From: a virus
Reading direction: 5' to 3' (one strand)
Length of the DNA: 23,405 nucleotides
IMG/VR virus record: IMGVR_UViG_3300034407_000115
Span: 1-23,405 of that record
Shown one piece after another: positions 253 through 22,766 of this stretch. The first letter of the stretch is position 1; every line of letters begins with the position of its first letter. The notes beneath the pieces were generated by a model, which saw nothing but the letters and a program-made list of their open reading frames with translations, was not told where the DNA came from and searched no databases. A program made the position numbers and the translations under genes.

Positions 253-437
253 AAACTTTTTATTATCAAACGCACGACACGGACTATTGTTGGTGGGATT
301 CATACGTCCATAAAGATTGTAAAGTTTTAGCTACTCAAGACGCAAAAGAGTATCAGGCTCTTCCTAGTCGGTTTGCGATGTCCATATTCCTAGAGTCACC
401 CAACAAAGATGGAGATAAAGGAACCGAAGAAGCCTGA
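249..437 (+). CDS. Small hypothetical protein coupled to DNA polymerase
   Basis: A 62-aa protein that I do not recognise. Its ATG overlaps the polymerase stop in an ATGA arrangement, with a GGAGA purine run about 8 bases upstream, so it belongs to the replication operon. The sequence is rich in aromatic residues near the start (YYQT, DYCWWD) and has two cysteines. No domain or membrane segment is evident. Its last 85 bases lie antisense to the end of the 1466-aa structural gene, so this DNA is read on both strands. It is probably real because of the coupling, but no function can be given. Confidence 0.6.
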   Translation: MKTFYYQTHDTDYCWWDSYVHKDCKVLATQDAKEYQALPSRFAMSIFLESPNKDGDKGTEEA

Positions 438-3400
438 GACGTTTGGATGTTAGGTGGCGGAGTCACTATGTTAGGTGGCGGAGTCACTATGTTAGGTGGC
501 GGAGTCACAACTGGAGGATTGAGGTTCAAGGAACTAGTATTAATGTTTTCTCTTTTATTAATAGAAGATTGGTTCTCTTTAACAACAGGATTTTGAGGAC
601 CTAGTCTAATTCTTCTTTCTTCTCGTTGTATTCTTCTTATGTCGCTCCGTGGTAAAAATTTAATTGTACCATTTTGTTTCATGATTTTTATAGTACCTGG
701 GTTTATGTCTAATGGTTTAAACCTTCCTTGAAGAGCCTCATCAAAACCTGATACCCCCGCTTCTTTTAAAAGTCTTTTTTGTTGTGCTTTTGAAAAACCT
801 AATGTTTCAGCGTCTTGAGAAAGAACATAAAACTCATTCATGTTTCGTCTACGAGCGGCAGTCATGTTTTTGTATGCTTCTAGAAGTTGCTCACGGGTTA
901 CGTTTGGTCGTCGCGCTACGCTGTTAAATATAGTTGCGGAACTAGCTTTATCCTTGGCAATTTCATATCCTTTAAACTGATATCCTTTTTCCATGTCCGT
1001 ATCGATTTGACCAATACCACTAAAGACTCTAGACAGTTCTTCCGTTAAGTCTCTTTCTCTTCCCATACGATCTTTTATAGGTTGATCGGTTAAACCCAAT
1101 GAATTAACAAATCCTTGTGCAAATCTACTCGGAACAAATTTACCACTCTTTTCTTGCACTGGAATAATGTTAGGAGCGATAGCGTCTGCGAGATGGGTCA
1201 CACTTTTAAGAATCTTATCGGTAGCAGAGTCTTGAGAGTCATACACTTCCGCACCTGTTAGAGTTCTACCTCCTCTTGCACCTATAATATCGGTTACAAA
1301 ACCCTCTTCACCTTCTGGAAGAACGTCTCTCAACGCACTAAGAGCAATGGACTCAGAAAGAAACGGAGCATAAAGTTCTCGTGCTGATTGTGAAAAAGCG
1401 TTCCAAACGGTTTCCCCAGAAGATCTATTATTTAATCTATCTGTTTCTACAGAATTTAAAGCACCGTTTATAATTTTTTGAAGCATATCATATGGCATAG
1501 AGTAACTTAAATTTACGAACTCTGGATGCCCTTTTTCATTCCGCCCCACAGACAATAGTTGAGCGTTTGTATTCCACGAAGGCGACATAGATCTACGATA
1601 CGCATCTTCTTCTTCCTCGGTGACACCAGTAACGTGTCTACCCATTCTTACTAATCCATTAGGAACAATACTCGTACTTGCAGACAAACCTGTAATACGT
1701 CTTAAACCAATTTCTTGTATCTTAGGGTTGGAAGAGGCCATTTCATCTAAGCCTCGTTCTAGAATATTAATGCTAGTACGCATTATCTCATACGGAAAAG
1801 CTACAAAACTTCCTACTGGTGCTCGTCGTAAGGCCTTAATAGCTGCGGGAGACATGTTATAATTGGGAACTGTATTTCTAACAATACTTGCTGCTTCCTG
1901 TTCTAATAGATCCGTTACTATTGCTTTTTGTTGTCCTAAGTTTAAAGCATCAAAATTTCTAAGATCCGTAACATTCTTTAAAGATGTATTAAGATATGTT
2001 GCTTGTTCTTTAGGAGATAGATCAGCTAAAGCACTAATTAATTTATTTTTTTCGAAGTCAAAGGAATAAATCTTCCATATGTCATCACCAGCTTGATATA
2101 AATTTTCAGCTAATTTTAATTTACTTTTCACTGGTTTTGCAACTTTTCTACCAAAAGCTTTTACAGGAGACTCGTTTGGATCTGAACCAAACCTAGTAGT
2201 ACTTTTAGTTGGTGCTTCTAGGTCAAGACCTTTTGCCAGAAGTGCTTGAAGTTCTTTTAACTGAGCTTGACTTCCTACAACACCAAGTTCTTGTAACCTT
2301 TTGTACGCTCTTCCCTGTTCGTCGGGCCCAAGACGACCTAAGTTGTCATAAACTAAACGCATTGATTCTAACAAGTTAGCACCCTTACCCACGTTACCAT
2401 TCGCAAGAGCGAACATACTAGCGGTAGTTACGTTTCTGATCTGAGTAGCAGGAGACAAAATCGTTTTACCGTATTGTGTAGCACCTTTTGCTTTTAAAAA
2501 CCCTGAATACATACCCCTTATTGCGGATGAAAAGTCGCCACTCTGTTCGTAGACAGTTCGTGTCAAAGCATTGTATACCTGTTGAGGAACAGCGAAACCA
2601 TCCAATGTACCCCATCCAGAGGTTAAACTACTATCTGTTGCTGTCGCACCTCCTGGTGCACCCGAATCTCTAAAGGAACCAAATGTTTTTGCACCTTTTG
2701 GTGCACCTAAATCTCCTAAAAAATCTGCGTCATCTTTAAGACTAGCATCGTTTGCGGCTTTTGCCCCAGCATCTAAATCATCGGTTCCTTTACCTAAAAC
2801 AACATATCCATTGTCAGTAAGCATTTTTTTCTCTTGAGCAGTCATTTCGCTTGTATCCCGAAACAATTTTTCAATGCCTGGATTTCTTCCATCCGTTGCC
2901 ATCTGTCGGATAGAACCGAAGTAATCATCAACTGCTTTGAACTGAGATAGGTCTGCTACGGTAGAAACATATCGTTCCAAAGGATTCTTTACTTCTCCTA
3001 ATAAAGCTCTTTTATAGGCTGGTATATCTTTTCGTAGTTGGAAAAGACCCATGTCTAGTTTGTCTACTGGAATTCTACTGACATTTTTAAAAGTAGGTCT
3101 TCTCTGATGTCTTTTAAAAAAACTATCCGTAGCTAGATCAACTTGTTTAGCTGTCGGTGCACCACCTACCTGTAAGTCTAAAGGATCAAACTTTGTACCG
3201 AGAATTTTAGACTCCGTAGCTAGAAAATCTAATTCTTCTTGGACGGCTTTAGCGTCTCTTGCAAAACCATCTTTTGCTATTTTAAAAGTTTGTTTGCTAG
3301 GTTGATATGAACGGTCTGTATAAATTCTATATTGTCTTCTAAGATACTCACCCATGTTGGCTTCGATAGTTTCTTTTAAAGTTAATTCAGAACCTTTAGG

Positions 3401-4753
3401 TAACACAGAGCCATATTGTTTTATAAAGTCACCTTCAGCAACCTCCTTACTAAGTTGGCTCAATTGACTACGCATTATTTTTAGATCACCATGCAAACTT
3501 TTAGGTAAGTTACTTAGGATTGTTTCTGATGCGGCTTTGTCTGGGGTTAATATATAGGATTCAATGTCATTAAGCATCGCTTTTTGTGAGTTAGGAGTAC
3601 GATTAACAAAATCTTCTTCGCCTTTTTTTACAATTTTTGCTAATCTTGCATCCATTTTTTCAGTAAGAAGTTGCGCGGCTCTCGTTTCAGATTCTATTAC
3701 TCCACCCACTAGAGATCTTTTACTTGCTATTTCGTCTGGTAAGATACCTCTGTATCTAAGAGCACCTAAAGTATCTACAAGAGACCTCGTAAAAAGATTT
3801 TGTTTAGCTCCCATCCTTCTATCGTCTTCTAGTTTTTTAGCGTATTGTCCCAAGGGACCTTCTTTTATTTTTTGTACGCCTTTGCCTATTCCATAAGGAA
3901 TTTTACTTTTAATTGCACCTTTAGATATGATCTGCCCCAACGTAGAAATAACAGGAGGGAGAACACCTTGAGCGACTCCGCCCTCAACACCAATTCTTAG
4001 TTTATTTCGTATTGCTCTTAGAGCCTCTTGCCTGCCTTCTAAACCAATGTCGTCTTCTGTGTTCGTAATCTCACCACCGTACCAAGAGTCTGGAAGTAAG
4101 TTACCAAGACTTTGAGTTCCTTCCGTTGAAACTATCGCGTCTGCAACACCAGCGGCAGCAACACCTTTTCCAATTTTTTTTGCTTTTTGGAAAAAGGTAA
4201 GTGCTTTAAGTGGGCCTGTTATCACTTTGAGTGCGAGACCCGCTGGTCCCACAAACTGAGCACCTACATCCAACAAAGATGCTGTTACGCCAACTGGATC
4301 TATTCCAGCCGCTTCTCGAAAATCTTCTCCTGCTTTTGTAACTTTAGGTCTGAGGTTCGTGCCCAACGCAAGATCAGGGAGGAGAGCCGCTGTCTCTCCG
4401 ACACCTTGCACAATTTTAGTAAGACCTGAACCAACTCCCTCAAACATTTCTTGAGGAAGACCTTCCGACACTTTAGGATCGTAGTCAGGTTTTCGAATGC
4501 CAATGTCGCCAAACCCAGGAACTGCACCTAAAGCGGTACGAAGAGCAATAGCCCACATGTTATTGGGGTCAGACTTTTCCTCTGTCTCAACAACGTCTTT
4601 CTCAACAACGTCTGCCTTAACTTCCTGAGTATCCGTCTGAAAACTAGGTGTCCGTGATTGTATAGCTTTAATGATTTCTTCCCTAGAGGCACCTTCTGGT
4701 CCCTCTATTGTATACGTTTTTCCGTCTGGTCCTGATATACTATACGTTGCCAT
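353..4753 (-). CDS. Very large virion protein, putative internal/ejection protein
   Basis: At 1466 aa this is by far the largest gene in the window and the last gene of the late module. The N-terminus (residues 1-38) has a beta-hairpin-like repeat, SISGPDGKTYTIEGPEG, followed by an acidic linker (about 40-65). The middle is long, mostly helical, with Ala/Gly-rich segments around residues 75-190 and basic helical stretches. The segment YQAGDDIWKIYSFDFE is a type I know from large marine podovirus proteins. The tail is proline-rich, with tandem TPPPNIV units (about 1415-1437). Position after the nozzle and smaller internal proteins, and size comparable to T7 gp16, suggest a DNA-ejection protein delivered into the cell. 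I see no lytic transglycosylase or protease active-site motif. The stop lies inside the convergent small gene at 249-437. Confidence 0.6.
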   Translation of the reverse strand: MATYSISGPDGKTYTIEGPEGASREEIIKAIQSRTPSFQTDTQEVKADVVEKDVVETEEKSDPNNMWAIALRTALGAVPGFGDIGIRKPDYDPKVSEGLPQEMFEGVGSGLTKIVQGVGETAALLPDLALGTNLRPKVTKAGEDFREAAGIDPVGVTASLLDVGAQFVGPAGLALKVITGPLKALTFFQKAKKIGKGVAAAGVADAIVSTEGTQSLGNLLPDSWYGGEITNTEDDIGLEGRQEALRAIRNKLRIGVEGGVAQGVLPPVISTLGQIISKGAIKSKIPYGIGKGVQKIKEGPLGQYAKKLEDDRRMGAKQNLFTRSLVDTLGALRYRGILPDEIASKRSLVGGVIESETRAAQLLTEKMDARLAKIVKKGEEDFVNRTPNSQKAMLNDIESYILTPDKAASETILSNLPKSLHGDLKIMRSQLSQLSKEVAEGDFIKQYGSVLPKGSELTLKETIEANMGEYLRRQYRIYTDRSYQPSKQTFKIAKDGFARDAKAVQEELDFLATESKILGTKFDPLDLQVGGAPTAKQVDLATDSFFKRHQRRPTFKNVSRIPVDKLDMGLFQLRKDIPAYKRALLGEVKNPLERYVSTVADLSQFKAVDDYFGSIRQMATDGRNPGIEKLFRDTSEMTAQEKKMLTDNGYVVLGKGTDDLDAGAKAANDASLKDDADFLGDLGAPKGAKTFGSFRDSGAPGGATATDSSLTSGWGTLDGFAVPQQVYNALTRTVYEQSGDFSSAIRGMYSGFLKAKGATQYGKTILSPATQIRNVTTASMFALANGNVGKGANLLESMRLVYDNLGRLGPDEQGRAYKRLQELGVVGSQAQLKELQALLAKGLDLEAPTKSTTRFGSDPNESPVKAFGRKVAKPVKSKLKLAENLYQAGDDIWKIYSFDFEKNKLISALADLSPKEQATYLNTSLKNVTDLRNFDALNLGQQKAIVTDLLEQEAASIVRNTVPNYNMSPAAIKALRRAPVGSFVAFPYEIMRTSINILERGLDEMASSNPKIQEIGLRRITGLSASTSIVPNGLVRMGRHVTGVTEEEEDAYRRSMSPSWNTNAQLLSVGRNEKGHPEFVNLSYSMPYDMLQKIINGALNSVETDRLNNRSSGETVWNAFSQSARELYAPFLSESIALSALRDVLPEGEEGFVTDIIGARGGRTLTGAEVYDSQDSATDKILKSVTHLADAIAPNIIPVQEKSGKFVPSRFAQGFVNSLGLTDQPIKDRMGRERDLTEELSRVFSGIGQIDTDMEKGYQFKGYEIAKDKASSATIFNSVARRPNVTREQLLEAYKNMTAARRRNMNEFYVLSQDAETLGFSKAQQKRLLKEAGVSGFDEALQGRFKPLDINPGTIKIMKQNGTIKFLPRSDIRRIQREERRIRLGPQNPVVKENQSSINKRENINTSSLNLNPPVVTPPPNIVTPPPNIVTPPPNIQTSQASSVPLSPSLLGDSRNMDIANRLGRA
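447..509. repeat. Three tandem 21-base repeats in the 3' end of the large virion gene
   Basis: Three head-to-tail 21-base units (447-467, 468-488, 489-509) are identical except for the last base of the third. On the minus strand each encodes one TPPPNIV-type heptad, so length changes in steps of one unit would keep the frame. They lie just beyond the overlap with the plus-strand gene. The near-perfect identity at the DNA level points to recent duplication by slippage rather than old protein-level repetition. Confidence 0.95.
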
Positions 4754-18335: not shown

Positions 18336-19247
18336 TTACGCTCCTGGCGAACCGAATACACAACGTGGATCCGAGAATCCGAAGCTGTAACGCTCTCGAG
18401 CCTTGTATCTCATGTTGCCTGTATCGAAGTCGGACTCCATGTTGGTAGCCATCGGAGTACGCTCAAAGTGGATAAACCCACGAGGTGCATCTGTTTTAAC
18501 CCACCACGCATCTGGATCACTTAGGAAGTCATTGACAGCATAACCGTCAGGAACCATTCCCATTGATTTGATTGCGTTAGTGTCGTTATCCGCAGTGCCA
18601 ACCCGAAGATTAGATACCATGATACGTTCTGCGATGAACTGAAGTTGACGTGGTAGAATTAACTTCATACCGCGAAGAGCAACTTTCATCCCACGCTCAT
18701 CCACATAGCCAGCGATACTGATCAACGCATCTTCCAAAGAAGTTTCGTTTAAATCAGATGCAACCGCTGGTGTGTTTGATAGTGTCCCACCGTTTGTAAG
18801 AGGGTGTGCAGTTGAACAAAGTGCAACTCCATCTCCTCCGGCAGAAGCCCCACCAGTGAACGCGTTGTTCAAGATGCTTGCAGCTTTTACCTGTTTCGTG
18901 TGAGCCATTGACCTAGCAAGAGCACGGGTATATCGGCTTCCGAGACGATCATAAAGATTGTCTTCGATAGCTTCTTCCGTGATTGAGAATGCCAATGCGA
19001 TTGTTTCGTTGTTGTAACGAGCAGTGAATGCTTCGTTAGCATCATCGAAACTTACGGCGTTGCCTTCCGACTTGTTCGGAGCGGCACCAAATCCAGAGAG
19101 CATCACCTCTTCCTCAAACGCTCTGTCTGAAGATTCAGTAGTATAGATCTCTGCATGTTGGTTTTCGTACCTGTCATACTCCATGCCAAATAAGGCATTG
19201 AGACCAGGCTCTAGCTCTTTTGCTAGTTGTGCGCGTGATATAGCCAT
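18336..19247 (-). CDS. Major capsid protein (HK97 fold)
   Basis: A 303-aa protein with the hallmarks of the marine phage coat family. The N-terminal helix AISRAQLAKELEPGLNALFG is followed by a long loop (FEEEVMLSGFGAAPNKSEGN), then the spine-helix region EAIEDNLYDRLGSRYTRALA, with ARSMAHTKQVKAASILNNAF after it. The A-domain segment includes LRGMKLILPRQLQFIAERIM, and the C-terminal part has FIHFERTPMATNMESDFDTG. It follows scaffold and capsid-associated genes and is followed by a strong terminator, the usual position for the coat gene. It would form the icosahedral shell, with about 415 copies if T=7. Size is normal for a shell that needs no large insertion domain. Confidence 0.85.
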   Translation of the reverse strand: MAISRAQLAKELEPGLNALFGMEYDRYENQHAEIYTTESSDRAFEEEVMLSGFGAAPNKSEGNAVSFDDANEAFTARYNNETIALAFSITEEAIEDNLYDRLGSRYTRALARSMAHTKQVKAASILNNAFTGGASAGGDGVALCSTAHPLTNGGTLSNTPAVASDLNETSLEDALISIAGYVDERGMKVALRGMKLILPRQLQFIAERIMVSNLRVGTADNDTNAIKSMGMVPDGYAVNDFLSDPDAWWVKTDAPRGFIHFERTPMATNMESDFDTGNMRYKARERYSFGFSDPRCVFGSPGA

Positions 19248-19258
19248 TTTCTAGTCTC

Positions 19259-19903
19259 CTATACGCCAGTTGTTGAAACAGTACCCGCCGCAATGGAGCC
19301 AGTTGGCGCATTGAAGTGGTTATTGATTCTAACGATTAAAGGGATACCAGCGACAGTAAAGTCTTCATTATCAACATCGTCTTGGATGCCCATAACTCTA
19401 AGAGCTAAAGTGTTGGTGGTTGCGACAGTATTTAGATCCGCAGTTCCAGATGATATACCAGTACTATCAGTACCAGAGTTGCCATCTGCAAGAGCGATGT
19501 TTGAGAAGACCGCTGTGCGAACCTCTGCTTCAGTGTTGTAGCCAGCTACTACATTAGATGTAGCAATTGAGAACAATTGATTTGGACTGTCATACAAGAA
19601 AGCTTTGACGGGGAAATTTGTATCCGCGCCAGAACCAGGCCAGTAATTGGACCAAGTCATTTTTCCAGTAGAACTTGAGACATATTCACAGCCCCAGAAA
19701 ACACCGACAATAGAGACGTTACCACCAGCCGCAGCTTGTAGATCGTCAATAACTCCCGCCGCCAACGGAATAACCGCTTGGCCTTGATAGAGTTTGTTAG
19801 TGTTTGCTGCCGCTATGCGATACTCGCTCAAACCAGTGGAATTGGGTGTAGCACCCTGCATACTTATCGGTCTAAGACCGTATGCGCCATTAGTATTTGC
19901 CAT
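19259..19903 (-). CDS. Capsid-associated virion protein (decoration candidate)
   Basis: A 214-aa protein located between the scaffold group and the coat gene. It starts ANTNGAYGLRPISMQGATPN, which is typical of a family found next to the coat gene in many marine phages. The body is beta-rich, with IVGVFWGCEYVSSSTGKMTW, YWPGSGADTNFPVKAFLYDS and, near the end, VAGIPLIVRINNHFNAPTGS. It has no catalytic motif. Position suggests a capsid decoration or stabilising protein made together with the coat; proof would need virion proteomics. The gene lies 11 bases ahead of the coat start. Confidence 0.6.
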   Translation of the reverse strand: MANTNGAYGLRPISMQGATPNSTGLSEYRIAAANTNKLYQGQAVIPLAAGVIDDLQAAAGGNVSIVGVFWGCEYVSSSTGKMTWSNYWPGSGADTNFPVKAFLYDSPNQLFSIATSNVVAGYNTEAEVRTAVFSNIALADGNSGTDSTGISSGTADLNTVATTNTLALRVMGIQDDVDNEDFTVAGIPLIVRINNHFNAPTGSIAAGTVSTTGV

Positions 19904-19919
19904 TATAGCACCTCATTAA

Positions 19920-20381
19920 TTATTCAGAAGAGGGTTTTCCTCTGCCGAAGGTTACACGACTTTGCCTACTCTGATGAATAGGCATCAAAGGATTTTGTTC
20001 CTTCATTAGATCTTGATCGACTGCGGCCATTGCTTCGCGGGTCCGGGTCCCGTAATACTCGTTTCTTTCATTGGCGGTTTCGATAGGTATTCGACACAAC
20101 ATTAAGCCACCATTACCAATAACTCCTGCAAATTTACCATCTTCGATGGTCGGAGCTTCATAGTCAGGATACTCTTCAGAACGAACGGGTTCCCATCCTT
20201 CACGAAGTTTAGCATGAACATTTGTCTGGTCATCCTCTCCTCGCATAGATGTTCGTATCCAACGATGCACATAACCCGCTGGGGCTTCTGGGGCATCTAG
20301 GCGACTGGGCGGTGCCCAGGGTTTTCTGCGCGTTTGTTTTTCTCGCGTCTCAGTTGATCGTGGTGCTCTTGCTTCTGCCAT
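19920..20381 (-). CDS. Conserved head-module protein of unknown function
   Basis: A 153-aa hydrophilic protein. The N-terminal third is basic and proline-rich (RAPRSTETREKQTRRKPWAP), then GYVHRWIRTSMRGEDDQTNV and REGWEPVRSEEYPDY. A hydrophobic strand, GNGGLMLCRIPIE, comes later, then a helix with NERNEYYGTRTREAMAAVDQ. The segment around the Trp-Ile-Arg and the LMLCRIP strand are familiar from marine phages, where the gene also lies between scaffold and capsid genes. It may help capsid assembly or be a minor head protein. No enzyme can be proposed. Confidence 0.6.
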   Translation of the reverse strand: MAEARAPRSTETREKQTRRKPWAPPSRLDAPEAPAGYVHRWIRTSMRGEDDQTNVHAKLREGWEPVRSEEYPDYEAPTIEDGKFAGVIGNGGLMLCRIPIETANERNEYYGTRTREAMAAVDQDLMKEQNPLMPIHQSRQSRVTFGRGKPSSE

Positions 20382-20385
20382 GTTT

Positions 20386-21315
20386 TTAATCCTTCACATA
20401 CTTTGCATATTCCGAAATAGGTACATTAAGCTTCTTTGCCATCGCAACTTGCGATGGAGTTAGCGTCACGGTCCTGCGCCCCTTTTTAGTGTTGCGAGAT
20501 GCGGAAGATCCAGCGGGTGCGACCTGGGTACTTCCTCCCGTTTTCTTAACGCCTAATTTTGCCGGAAACTCCGACAATAATCTGCGATCTACCTCAGTAT
20601 AGTACTCATTTGACAGCGGGTCAAACCCTTCTTCTTCTACCATCTTACGATGGATGCCAAATGCAGCATAAGTCATAACCTCATCCTGACCAAACCAAGT
20701 ATTTTTTTCGGCCCACTCTCTAGCTTTAGGATCCTCTTGTCGAGGAGGAGGCGGTGCCGCTTGTTGCGGTGCAACAGCCTGTCTTTGTTCTTCGGGCTGC
20801 GCCTGCTCTACAGACAATCTTTGATCAGCGCGTTGTTTTGCAACATTATACCTGTCAGAGTCTATAGTTGCACGAGACAAATATTCTTGCGCCTTGACTA
20901 CAGCATCTGAATCACCGGACTCATACGCGTCCTTGTATGCCTGTCTAGCTGATTGCAACTGTGCATCAACTTTAGCTCCATACTGATTCAAGTAACCACT
21001 ATCTAGCTGTTTGTTATGAGCCTTTAGATTGTTGTTTTCCTGCAACAACTTCTCAGCAAATCTTTGAGCTTCTTCTTTATCACGTTTTTCTTGATGGTAC
21101 TTTGCTGTTTGTTTCTTAATTCGGTTCTGAACATTCTTACTATACGTTTCAAGTTCATCGCCAGCTTCTTCGCTAGGAGCCTCTTCTTGGACTTTAACTT
21201 CAGGCTCTTGCGTAGCAACCTTTTCTTCTGGTGCTTCACTACCGGTTTCTTCTACTTCAACAACAACTGGTTCTTCTGCGTCACCAGCTTGCTTGACTTC
21301 TGTTTCTTCACTCAT
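20386..21315 (-). CDS. Capsid scaffolding protein
   Basis: A 309-aa highly charged protein. Residues 1-55 are acidic and Glu/Val-rich; residues about 57-175 are a long charged helix region with coiled-coil character (NRIKKQTAKYHQEKRDKEEA, RFAEKLLQENNNLKAHNKQL). A Gln/Pro/Ala-rich linker (about 172-195, QRQAVAPQQAAPPPP) precedes a folded middle domain. The basic end carries RRTVTLTPSQVAMAKKLNVP, a helix-turn-helix-like tail that in other phages binds coat protein. This layout and the place upstream of the coat gene are those of a phage scaffold, which organises coat subunits and then leaves the shell. No protease is encoded in the visible region, so exit may be without cleavage. Confidence 0.8.
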   Translation of the reverse strand: MSEETEVKQAGDAEEPVVVEVEETGSEAPEEKVATQEPEVKVQEEAPSEEAGDELETYSKNVQNRIKKQTAKYHQEKRDKEEAQRFAEKLLQENNNLKAHNKQLDSGYLNQYGAKVDAQLQSARQAYKDAYESGDSDAVVKAQEYLSRATIDSDRYNVAKQRADQRLSVEQAQPEEQRQAVAPQQAAPPPPRQEDPKAREWAEKNTWFGQDEVMTYAAFGIHRKMVEEEGFDPLSNEYYTEVDRRLLSEFPAKLGVKKTGGSTQVAPAGSSASRNTKKGRRTVTLTPSQVAMAKKLNVPISEYAKYVKD

Positions 21316-21324
21316 GACTCTCTC

Positions 21325-21810
21325 CTAAATATGTTTAACGTCATCTGGTTCTAAAATAGTAGCAATAACTTCGTCATCATTTATGATGCGAACTTCGCCA
21401 CCATCAATTTTAAAACGAGATCCAGCATAACGACCAATGCAAACCCATTGACCTTGCTTGCACCAAGGCTCTGCGTCTGGTCCGAACTTGTTCGGATCCT
21501 TGTAAGCCATCGGACCAACTCGCATAACATAAGCAACAACAGTAGCTACTGCTTCTCTTTCACGAATTTCATCTGGAATAAATAGTCCACCACCAGTTTT
21601 AGCTTTCCCCTGGTACGGCATAACTAAAATACGCCACCCTGTAGGTTGAGGTAATCTTTCGACTAAGGGTTGATCTAAGAGTGAAGGGTCTAAAACCCTT
21701 TCATCGGCGGGTATATACGCGCTGTCAGCGATAGAAGACGACTTCTCAGCCTCCTTTTCAGCTTTCCTTTTCTGCGCGACATGTTCAGGAAGATATAAGG
21801 TCTTCGACAT
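21325..21810 (-). CDS. groES: GroES/Cpn10-like co-chaperonin
   Basis: A 161-aa protein using the ATG at 21808-21810 (MSKTLYLPEH); the longer in-frame start at 21876 is GTG and deep inside the previous gene. Residues 1-50 are a charged extension absent from host GroES (about 97 aa). From residue 57 the Cpn10 fold is readable: PTGWRILVMPYQGKAKTGG (strand and start of mobile loop), then LFI (76-78) in the place of the GroEL-binding IVL tripeptide, IREREAVATVVAYVMRVG, a roof-like insertion (102-116), and QGQWVCIGRYAGSRFKIDGG (119-138) with the closing DDEVIATI. It should cap the host GroEL to fold phage proteins, probably the coat, as T4 gp31 does. It lies 9 bases before the scaffold start. Confidence 0.85.
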   Translation of the reverse strand: MSKTLYLPEHVAQKRKAEKEAEKSSSIADSAYIPADERVLDPSLLDQPLVERLPQPTGWRILVMPYQGKAKTGGGLFIPDEIREREAVATVVAYVMRVGPMAYKDPNKFGPDAEPWCKQGQWVCIGRYAGSRFKIDGGEVRIINDDEVIATILEPDDVKHI

Positions 21811-22000
21811 CGTCTGCGTTCTTCTCCAGCAGGGCTTTAATTTCTTCTCTGGCAAAGGCAACGCCCCGTATCTCACCTACCAAAGATTTGTACTGCTCCC
21901 AGTCCTTAACTGCACCGTTGGAAAGAGCATCAGATATATTCTGTTCTCTCTCCTTCAATACCTTATACATATAGCGAGCAAATTCAACTCCGTCTAGCAC
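21785..22000 (-). CDS. Small helical protein of unknown function
   Basis: A 71-aa protein, almost entirely helical and acidic, with VEFARYMYKVLKEREQNISD (5-24) and SLVGEIRGVAFAREEIKALL (39-58) as two amphipathic helices. This is a small conserved family in marine phages, usually immediately upstream of head-assembly genes. Its end overlaps the start of the GroES-like gene by 26 bases, so it may regulate or couple that gene's translation. A structural helper role is a guess; there is no recognised function. Confidence 0.6.
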   Translation of the reverse strand: MLDGVEFARYMYKVLKEREQNISDALSNGAVKDWEQYKSLVGEIRGVAFAREEIKALLEKNADDVEDLISS

Positions 22001-22253: not shown

Positions 22254-22766
22254 TTACACTGCCATTTCTAATGCTGCTTCCAGCGTCTCATCGTTTCGTC
22301 TTGTCCATCCTCTACCAAAAGTATCGAACGTACTTAGACCTTCATAAAATTCCTGCCTTGCTTTATGCATAGGAACTATTATTTCTTCTGGAGCCATCTC
22401 TTCTACAGCTCGAAGCGTCATCGGTCCAATACCGCCATCTGCTTCCACACCAATAATTCGTTGTAATGCTTTGGCTGATCTACTCATACCACTGTTAACG
22501 CCCCAATCGAACACACACCAATCTACACCACTAGGTAACTCATCACAGCTACCTCGATCCCAATAATTGTTTTTGTATATTGGAGCTACGTCATCCACAG
22601 TAAGATCTCTCATCTCTTGTTCAGAGACTTCTCTTCCAACCCAGTCCTCATATACTTTTTTAGTAACACCGTGATTAGTGATCCCACCTGGATCGCTCGG
22701 ATGATTTACAAAACCCCCTTCGTGCTCTAGTAATAAGTGTAAACAATGCTCGTAATTTTGTATCAC
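22254..22766 (-). CDS. Endolysin, GH108-type N-acetylmuramidase with PG-binding region
   Basis: A 170-aa protein starting at GTG (22764-22766), with an AGGA site before it. The N-terminus has LLLEHEGGFVNHPSDPGGIT (11-30); Glu16 in the EGG motif is the expected catalytic acid, and NHGVT completes the GH108 signature. The middle has GVDWCVFDWGVNSGMSRSAK, and the segment GVEADGGIGPMTLRAV (about 106-121) is a PG-binding_3-type motif. It should cleave peptidoglycan glycan strands at the end of infection. No signal peptide is present, so it needs a holin for access; a holin candidate is encoded just upstream in transcription order. Confidence 0.85.
   Translation of the reverse strand: MIQNYEHCLHLLLEHEGGFVNHPSDPGGITNHGVTKKVYEDWVGREVSEQEMRDLTVDDVAPIYKNNYWDRGSCDELPSGVDWCVFDWGVNSGMSRSAKALQRIIGVEADGGIGPMTLRAVEEMAPEEIIVPMHKARQEFYEGLSTFDTFGRGWTRRNDETLEAALEMAV

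Follow-up and report, generated by a model that had tools for sequence, protein, structure and literature searches.

Why a phage whose coat protein is of normal size should carry a chaperonin lid of its own, and what a long extension ahead of the lid fold might add to it, are the questions raised by a gene in the window analyzed here, the whole 23405-base stretch of an IMG/VR virus record. We examined the identity of this gene, its tie to the neighboring head genes, the build of its N-terminus, and the readings of its role that these data favor.

A GroES gene within the head-gene cassette

The product of the ORF at 21325–21810 matched the Pfam Cpn10 family (PF00166) over residues 55–152 (E 1.8e-9, 37.9 bits vs a gathering score of 21.1) and PHROG 3188, annotated as co-chaperonin GroES (E 2.9e-14), and a PDB sequence search returned GroES/Cpn10 chains. 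NCBIfam GroES models, which describe bacterial equivalogs and subfamilies, gave E-values down to 1e-11, with every score below the curated cut-off (best 44.6 bits vs 96); by these scores, the protein is a relative that lies outside the bacterial subfamilies. In an AlphaFold model built with 102 relatives as input, the core reached pLDDT 83–91, and its best structural match was the solved GroES 8wuc (Foldseek E 3.1e-6, VIA Z 9.4, residues 53–153), while VIA matches beyond GroES and T4 gp31 were oxidoreductase-type entries with Z ∼5 or below. The ORF is a genuine, well-supported phage GroES gene and not a chance resemblance. The initial annotation, made from the sequence alone, had read Cpn10 strands in it; the PF00166 and PHROG 3188 matches and the agreement of the modeled core with solved GroES bear this out.

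On the minus strand, the gene order is a GH108 lysozyme (22254–22766), a 78-aa ORF, a 71-aa ORF, GroES, a scaffold-like gene, genes for proteins of 153 and 214 aa, and the coat gene. The features of this cassette and of the GroES core are as follows:

21785..22000, minus strand: 71-aa ORF with GTG start, upstream of GroES and overlapping its start by 26 nt
21325..21810, minus strand: phage GroES (Cpn10) gene, 161 aa, ATG start, TAG stop (included)
21355..21651, minus strand: Cpn10 beta-barrel core, residues 54–152, from Pfam and PDB matches
21577..21585, minus strand: mobile-loop LFI tripeptide, residues 76–78, located by alignment to GroES and conserved in position
21451..21516, minus strand: roof segment, residues 99–120, with the family-specific AY.D..KF....PWC (103-row alignment)
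21328..21354, minus strand: C-terminal tail LEPDDVKHI, residues 153–161, conserved and outside the Cpn10 profile
20386..21315, minus strand: scaffold-like protein, 309 aa, PHROG 28737 (no assigned function)
19920..20381, minus strand: 153-aa head-cassette protein, PHROG 36003 and synteny
19259..19903, minus strand: 214-aa head-cassette protein, PHROG 37556 and synteny
18336..19247, minus strand: major capsid protein, 303 aa, PF25209 (E 1.5e-10) and phrog_371 (E 1.2e-22)

The 309-aa protein is termed scaffold-like from its position, acidity, and conserved C-terminus. A first comparison covered 88 sequences, namely the window, L001, which duplicates the window locus, 80 further IMG/VR loci, and six phage records. 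Each of the 81 sequences extending >1100 nt past GroES had a scaffold homologue after it, and each of the 45 extending >4000 nt also had a coat homologue. In a larger set, 355/355 distinct GroES genes with ≥900 nt of downstream sequence were followed by an ORF of ≥180 aa, and none of these ORFs was shorter than 260 aa. The placement of GroES beside a scaffold, as initially proposed, holds for the 309-aa scaffold-like ORF next downstream. We also considered a programmed readthrough fusion of GroES and scaffold, since the window has both genes in one frame; the frame relation varies among relatives, with 58/135 motif-A loci (motif A is described below) in frame, and gives such a fusion no support. 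Elsewhere in the window, positions 353–4753 encode a 1466-aa protein without a confident Pfam match and with a PPPNIVT repeat near its C-terminus.

Within the core, the mobile loop reads KTGGGLFIPDE (residues 71–81), and its position is kept in 81 clade sequences; LFI, which the initial annotation had placed in the GroEL-contact position, does lie there at residues 76–78 and is predicted from the loop position to be GroEL-contact-like. In the roof segment, G99, Y103, W116, and C117 are invariant in the 103-row alignment, with 20 residues between G99 and G120. Among 73 distinct window-clade genes, pN/pS was 0.131 in the core and 0.257 in the mobile loop; the C-terminal tail (pN/pS 0.111) is constrained to the same degree as the core. 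The loose tail pattern P-[DE]-D-[IV] occurs in 280/361 distinct GroES, with relatives among loci L002–L436.

Co-occurrence of GroES with one capsid lineage

We approached the linkage from the capsid side, using coat relatives in IMG/VR that two alignment scans collected without reference to GroES (157 loci, of which 100 extend ≥3300 nt upstream). A Cpn10-like ORF (E ≤1e-10) lay upstream of the coat on the same strand in 98/100 loci, at a distance of ∼1.8–2.7 kb, and in 92/94 after removal of identical capsids. The two loci without an upstream GroES, L518 and L519, group with distant capsid records; L519 has portal, 90 aa, 248 aa, 155 aa, 161 aa, and coat in succession, an arrangement that looks like the window cassette minus GroES, as judged by size and order only. 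On a 63-row capsid tree, GroES presence needs a single change, the four GroES-free coats forming one side of one branch (support 100/98). Because these coats sit on one side of a branch, a single gain or loss accounts for GroES, which then stayed with its coat.

Phage records agree with this pattern. The window coat matched 22 of them by tblastn, and GroES occurs in all 18 whose capsid identity is 38.9% or higher, as seen by tblastn in 15 and by annotation in three (OK172329, MW202545, and MW202675, two of the three also by Pfam); in the 12 of these 18 that were inspected, GroES lies directly upstream of a scaffold-size gene. The remaining four records (BK063670, MW202601, MW202604, and MT836833) have distant coats of 28% identity or less, and no GroES was found in the three of them that were inspected, with Pfam applied to the six portal-to-coat proteins of two of them and with a profile search at maximum sensitivity. 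One further record, MT835992, has GroES and no coat match. The initial annotation had suggested looking for co-occurrence of the gene with this coat family, and it proves near complete, in 92/94 distinct capsids and 18/18 records. Our literature search, which missed most subscription journals, found no description of this one-change link between GroES and a coat lineage.

BK063670 (L251, 1725–6891) is assigned to a Methanomicrobiales virus and combines a distant coat relative and a similar head cassette with no GroES. Archaeal chaperonins usually function without a GroES lid, so the absence may be meaningful in this single case. HTVC-type GroES contigs (L279, L280, L282, and L290) occur in assemblies titled Pelagibacteraceae and Alphaproteobacteria that bear single-cell-style names, consistent with infected SAR11 cells.

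The capsid-side sample also bears on the extension. Among its 92 GroES, 38 are ≤119 aa and nearly without an extension, and only two carry the N-terminal motif A of the window protein. Since these short forms occupy the same place beside the same scaffold and capsid family, the link of GroES to coat and scaffold does not come from the extension.

The N-terminal extension and the overlapping upstream ORF

Ahead of the first conserved core residue, the window GroES has ∼52 residues, in line with the ∼50 extra residues of the initial annotation. Its description as a long charged extension stands as to length; alignment of 81 window-clade sequences shows, rather than a uniformly charged stretch, two conserved blocks flanking a variable charged linker:

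21769..21810, minus strand: motif A, residues 1–14 (MSKTLYLPEHVAQK), hydrophobic tripeptide, Pro, [DE]H, and helix start
21721..21768, minus strand: variable charged linker, residues 15–30, with indels and pN/pS 0.553
21652..21720, minus strand: motif B, residues 31–53 (AYI....RVLDPSLL...LVERL), from the 81-sequence alignment

Motif A is conserved in 81/81 of these sequences, with the consensus LYLP[DE]HVAQK and with L5 and P8 at 100%. In motif B (pN/pS 0.242), L40, D41, P42, L44, and L49 reach 98–100%, and this block is retained in members that have no motif A. A strict motif A pattern matched 127/361 distinct GroES, a set gathered mostly with GroES queries in which the window clade is over-represented, vs a single match among the remaining ORFs of these loci, which total 2,073,666 residues. 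When 160 GroES cores were placed on a tree, six changes were required to explain motif A, and a single supported clade of 75 held 48/49 motif-A rows; eight of 168 representatives, all divergent and none with motif A, had been dropped when their core anchor was not found. Within its own clade, motif A is missing from 27/75 representatives, most of which begin near motif B. Other GroES clades have unrelated N-termini, and the extension spans 13 to 65 residues in the 352/361 distinct GroES with a recognized core start, although the relatives' start codons were chosen by rule (ATG plus Shine–Dalgarno) and individual lengths and N-termini may be off. Being almost confined to a clade on the GroES tree and present in 2/92 capsid-side GroES, motif A is, at the level of sequence, a clade-specific add-on to GroES.

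Structure prediction gave the extension low confidence, with ten-residue pLDDT means of 44–63 over residues 1–50 in the first AlphaFold model. A second model, using motif-A sequences only, raised these means to 54–76 with a worse core and a lower overall mean pLDDT (63.7 vs 74.6), and neither model placed the extension confidently at a packing site. We found no description of a phage GroES N-terminal extension or of these motifs in a literature search that missed most subscription journals, and an earlier description is possible. Virioplankton chaperonins are reportedly the subject of a 2017 paper in the ISME Journal.

A small ORF of ∼62–77 aa lies immediately upstream of GroES in most relatives. 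In the window clade, its overlap with GroES is 26 nt in 77/80 loci and 29 nt in the other 3/80, so that all 80 measurable loci share one of two values; the upstream TGA spans GroES codons 8–9, and synonymous change in the overlap is low (pS 0.171). Such an arrangement could make motif A a side effect of gene overlap, with its sequence dictated by an upstream ORF that ends inside it, but we regard this origin as highly improbable. The motif is kept in divergent relatives whose genes overlap only slightly or not at all, reading TLYVPDHV in L258 (4 nt), GLILPDYV in L259 (8 nt), ELVVPKHI in L262 (none), and KLIVPQHI in L286 (8 nt). Residues 10–14, which lie outside the overlap, are nevertheless constrained like the core (pN/pS 0.116), and inside the overlap it is the GroES frame that is better conserved (identity 0.872 vs 0.813). 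Overprinting as the source of motif A was rejected on these three grounds. The value for residues 2–8 (pN/pS 0.415) comes from codons shared with the upstream ORF and is hence not comparable with those of other segments. In L258 and L262, a second open frame crosses the GroES start; it is dissimilar to the upstream gene and was taken as spurious.

Known chaperonin lids and the probable role of the phage GroES

Over residues 48–154, the best structure and sequence matches are bacterial GroES (8wuc, 4v4o, and 1aon). Bacterial GroES is not known to have an N-terminal extension or a conserved P-[DE]-D-[IV] tail, and its roof sequence differs. Alcaligenes phage QDWS535 shares both the cassette and the capsid lineage, and its GroES (Cpn10 E 1.2e-8) differs from that of the window in being 113 aa long, with no N-terminal extension and a long mobile-loop region. 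GroES in L248 (3348–3689), L457, L468, L470, and L583 also lack the extension and have a long mobile-loop region without the Gly-Gly pair, recalling the gp31 loop.

Closer in setting are HTVC023P-type pelagiphages and CRP-901-type roseophages, in which the Cpn10 family, the position upstream of a scaffold-like gene, and the capsid lineage are the same. GroES is listed among 13 core genes of HTVC023P-type pelagiphages in PMC9599517, and it is named in the genome-map legend for CRP-901-type phages in PMC10149686. The window GroES shares 44% identity with that of HTVC027P, 41% with HTVC023P, and 33% with CRP-902; the extensions of HTVC027P (KEQ.S.S...PK) and CRP-902 (SHQH..Y.DEE) are both unrelated to that of the window and have no motif A. 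Phage GroES is thus already known, and the window version differs by its extension and motifs.

T4 gp31 and RB49 CocO are likewise phage-encoded lids of the Cpn10 fold tied to capsid folding, and the window model matched their structures (1g31, Z 6.1; 2cgt, Z 6.4). According to excerpts of PMC3012670 and PMC6318259, gp31 is required for the coat protein gp23, cannot be replaced by GroES, and gives an enlarged cage; it has no roof loops and a longer mobile loop, which these texts explain by the 56-kDa coat. The window GroES, by contrast with gp31 as portrayed in the excerpt of PMC6318259, has a roof segment with AY.D..KF....PWC in its sequence and accompanies a coat of 303 aa, so that neither the missing roof loops nor the oversized client of a gp31-type expanded cage was found. 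Because the coat is small and the roof segment is kept, the T4 reason for an enlarged cage does not carry over, as the initial annotation had argued from coat size. The capsid is small enough for a normal cage, a point against the need for a private lid.

We consider it probable that the gene product is a heptameric lid for host GroEL that folds a head protein, the major capsid protein being the likeliest client, with motif A as an accessory; of the readings considered, a GroEL lid used for a head protein makes the fewest demands. Its ring form, its docking on GroEL, its co-expression with the head genes, and its client are inferred. The phage GroES would be expressed together with the head genes, cap host GroEL as a heptamer, and serve the folding of that head protein. 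Motif A would be a detachable docking peptide on a flexible linker, in seven copies per ring in the window clade, and would bind one conserved partner without being the cause of the GroES–capsid link. The contrast between a constrained motif A (pN/pS 0.116, near the 0.131 of the core) and a loose linker (0.553) supports the docking-peptide part. Instead of a special client, dosage or timing could also lie behind the GroES–capsid linkage.

Three other readings compete with a lid for a head protein. The phage gene might provide a general supply of lids where host GroES is scarce or degraded, with any GroEL substrate as client, and the T4 and RB49 lids do substitute for GroES in all essential host folding (PMC3012670, in excerpt); a gene of that kind could sit anywhere and with any capsid, while here it is fixed beside one lineage with one gain or loss, and we think this reading unlikely. 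The extension might recruit scaffold or coat, motif A bringing a head protein to the chaperonin or coupling folding to prohead assembly. The scaffold-like gene does adjoin GroES wherever there is room (81/81, and 355/355 for an ORF of ≥180 aa), motif A is under constraint similar to that of the core, and P-[DENQK]-H-[VI] is retained regardless of the mobile loop, as expected of a dedicated partner site. Yet the GroES of ≤119 aa (38/92) and the rarity of motif A (2/92) upstream of the same capsid family, together with its absence from 27/75 representatives of its own clade, argue against such recruitment, which was the initial suggestion, as a general rule; we give it a minor chance as the role of motif A, and a recruiting role may hold within the window clade alone.

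The last alternative makes motif A a second GroEL-docking strand that would bind in the apical groove and keep the lid tethered, either ahead of client displacement or afterward. Its hydrophobic tripeptide, Pro-acid pair, and helix resemble the mobile-loop contact, and the first model shows an extended tripeptide followed by a helix at both sites (helices 9–22 and 80–89). The clade consensus LYLPDHV aligns with the mobile loop LYIPDEV better than any of 5000 shuffles (0/5000 as good), and 77/81 clade members reach p <0.05. This resemblance, however, was noticed post hoc, is weaker in the window's own pair (145/5000 shuffles as good), and has no counterpart in other clades (1/82, 5/58, 0/19, and 0/4 at p <0.05); a sister subclade, moreover, keeps motif A with a mobile loop lacking the Pro-acid pair, and the two do not evolve jointly. 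We therefore find a second docking strand doubtful. A direct duplication of the mobile loop, our candidate origin for motif A, was rejected because the loop differs in motif-A relatives and other clades give no match, leaving the resemblance only as part of this alternative.

Returning to the lid for a head protein, motif A is retained in relatives with a mobile loop of the form GGI.L[VTA]K.T or similar, and because of this persistence we treat it as a putative independent docking peptide whose partner would be GroEL or a head protein. A bolder form, in which, in one large clade of marine phages, the lid and its docking peptide (a hydrophobic tripeptide followed by P-[DE]-H-[VI]-A) act as an adaptor joining the chaperonin to capsid assembly, with extensions swappable between clades, is offered tentatively, at somewhat less than even chances.

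If the adaptor form is true, the docking peptide binds a second GroEL site or a head protein of the phage, the lid is no longer passive but serves as an adaptor, and exchangeable adaptors on the lid would characterize this capsid lineage. The lineage is common among IMG/VR contigs, and in it a lid gene accompanies the capsid gene almost without exception although the coat is not oversized. Having a GroES-bearing lineage and a GroES-free sister cassette makes it testable which capsid change made the lid necessary, and the extensions offer a second test, of whether a chaperonin lid can bear partner-specific docking peptides.
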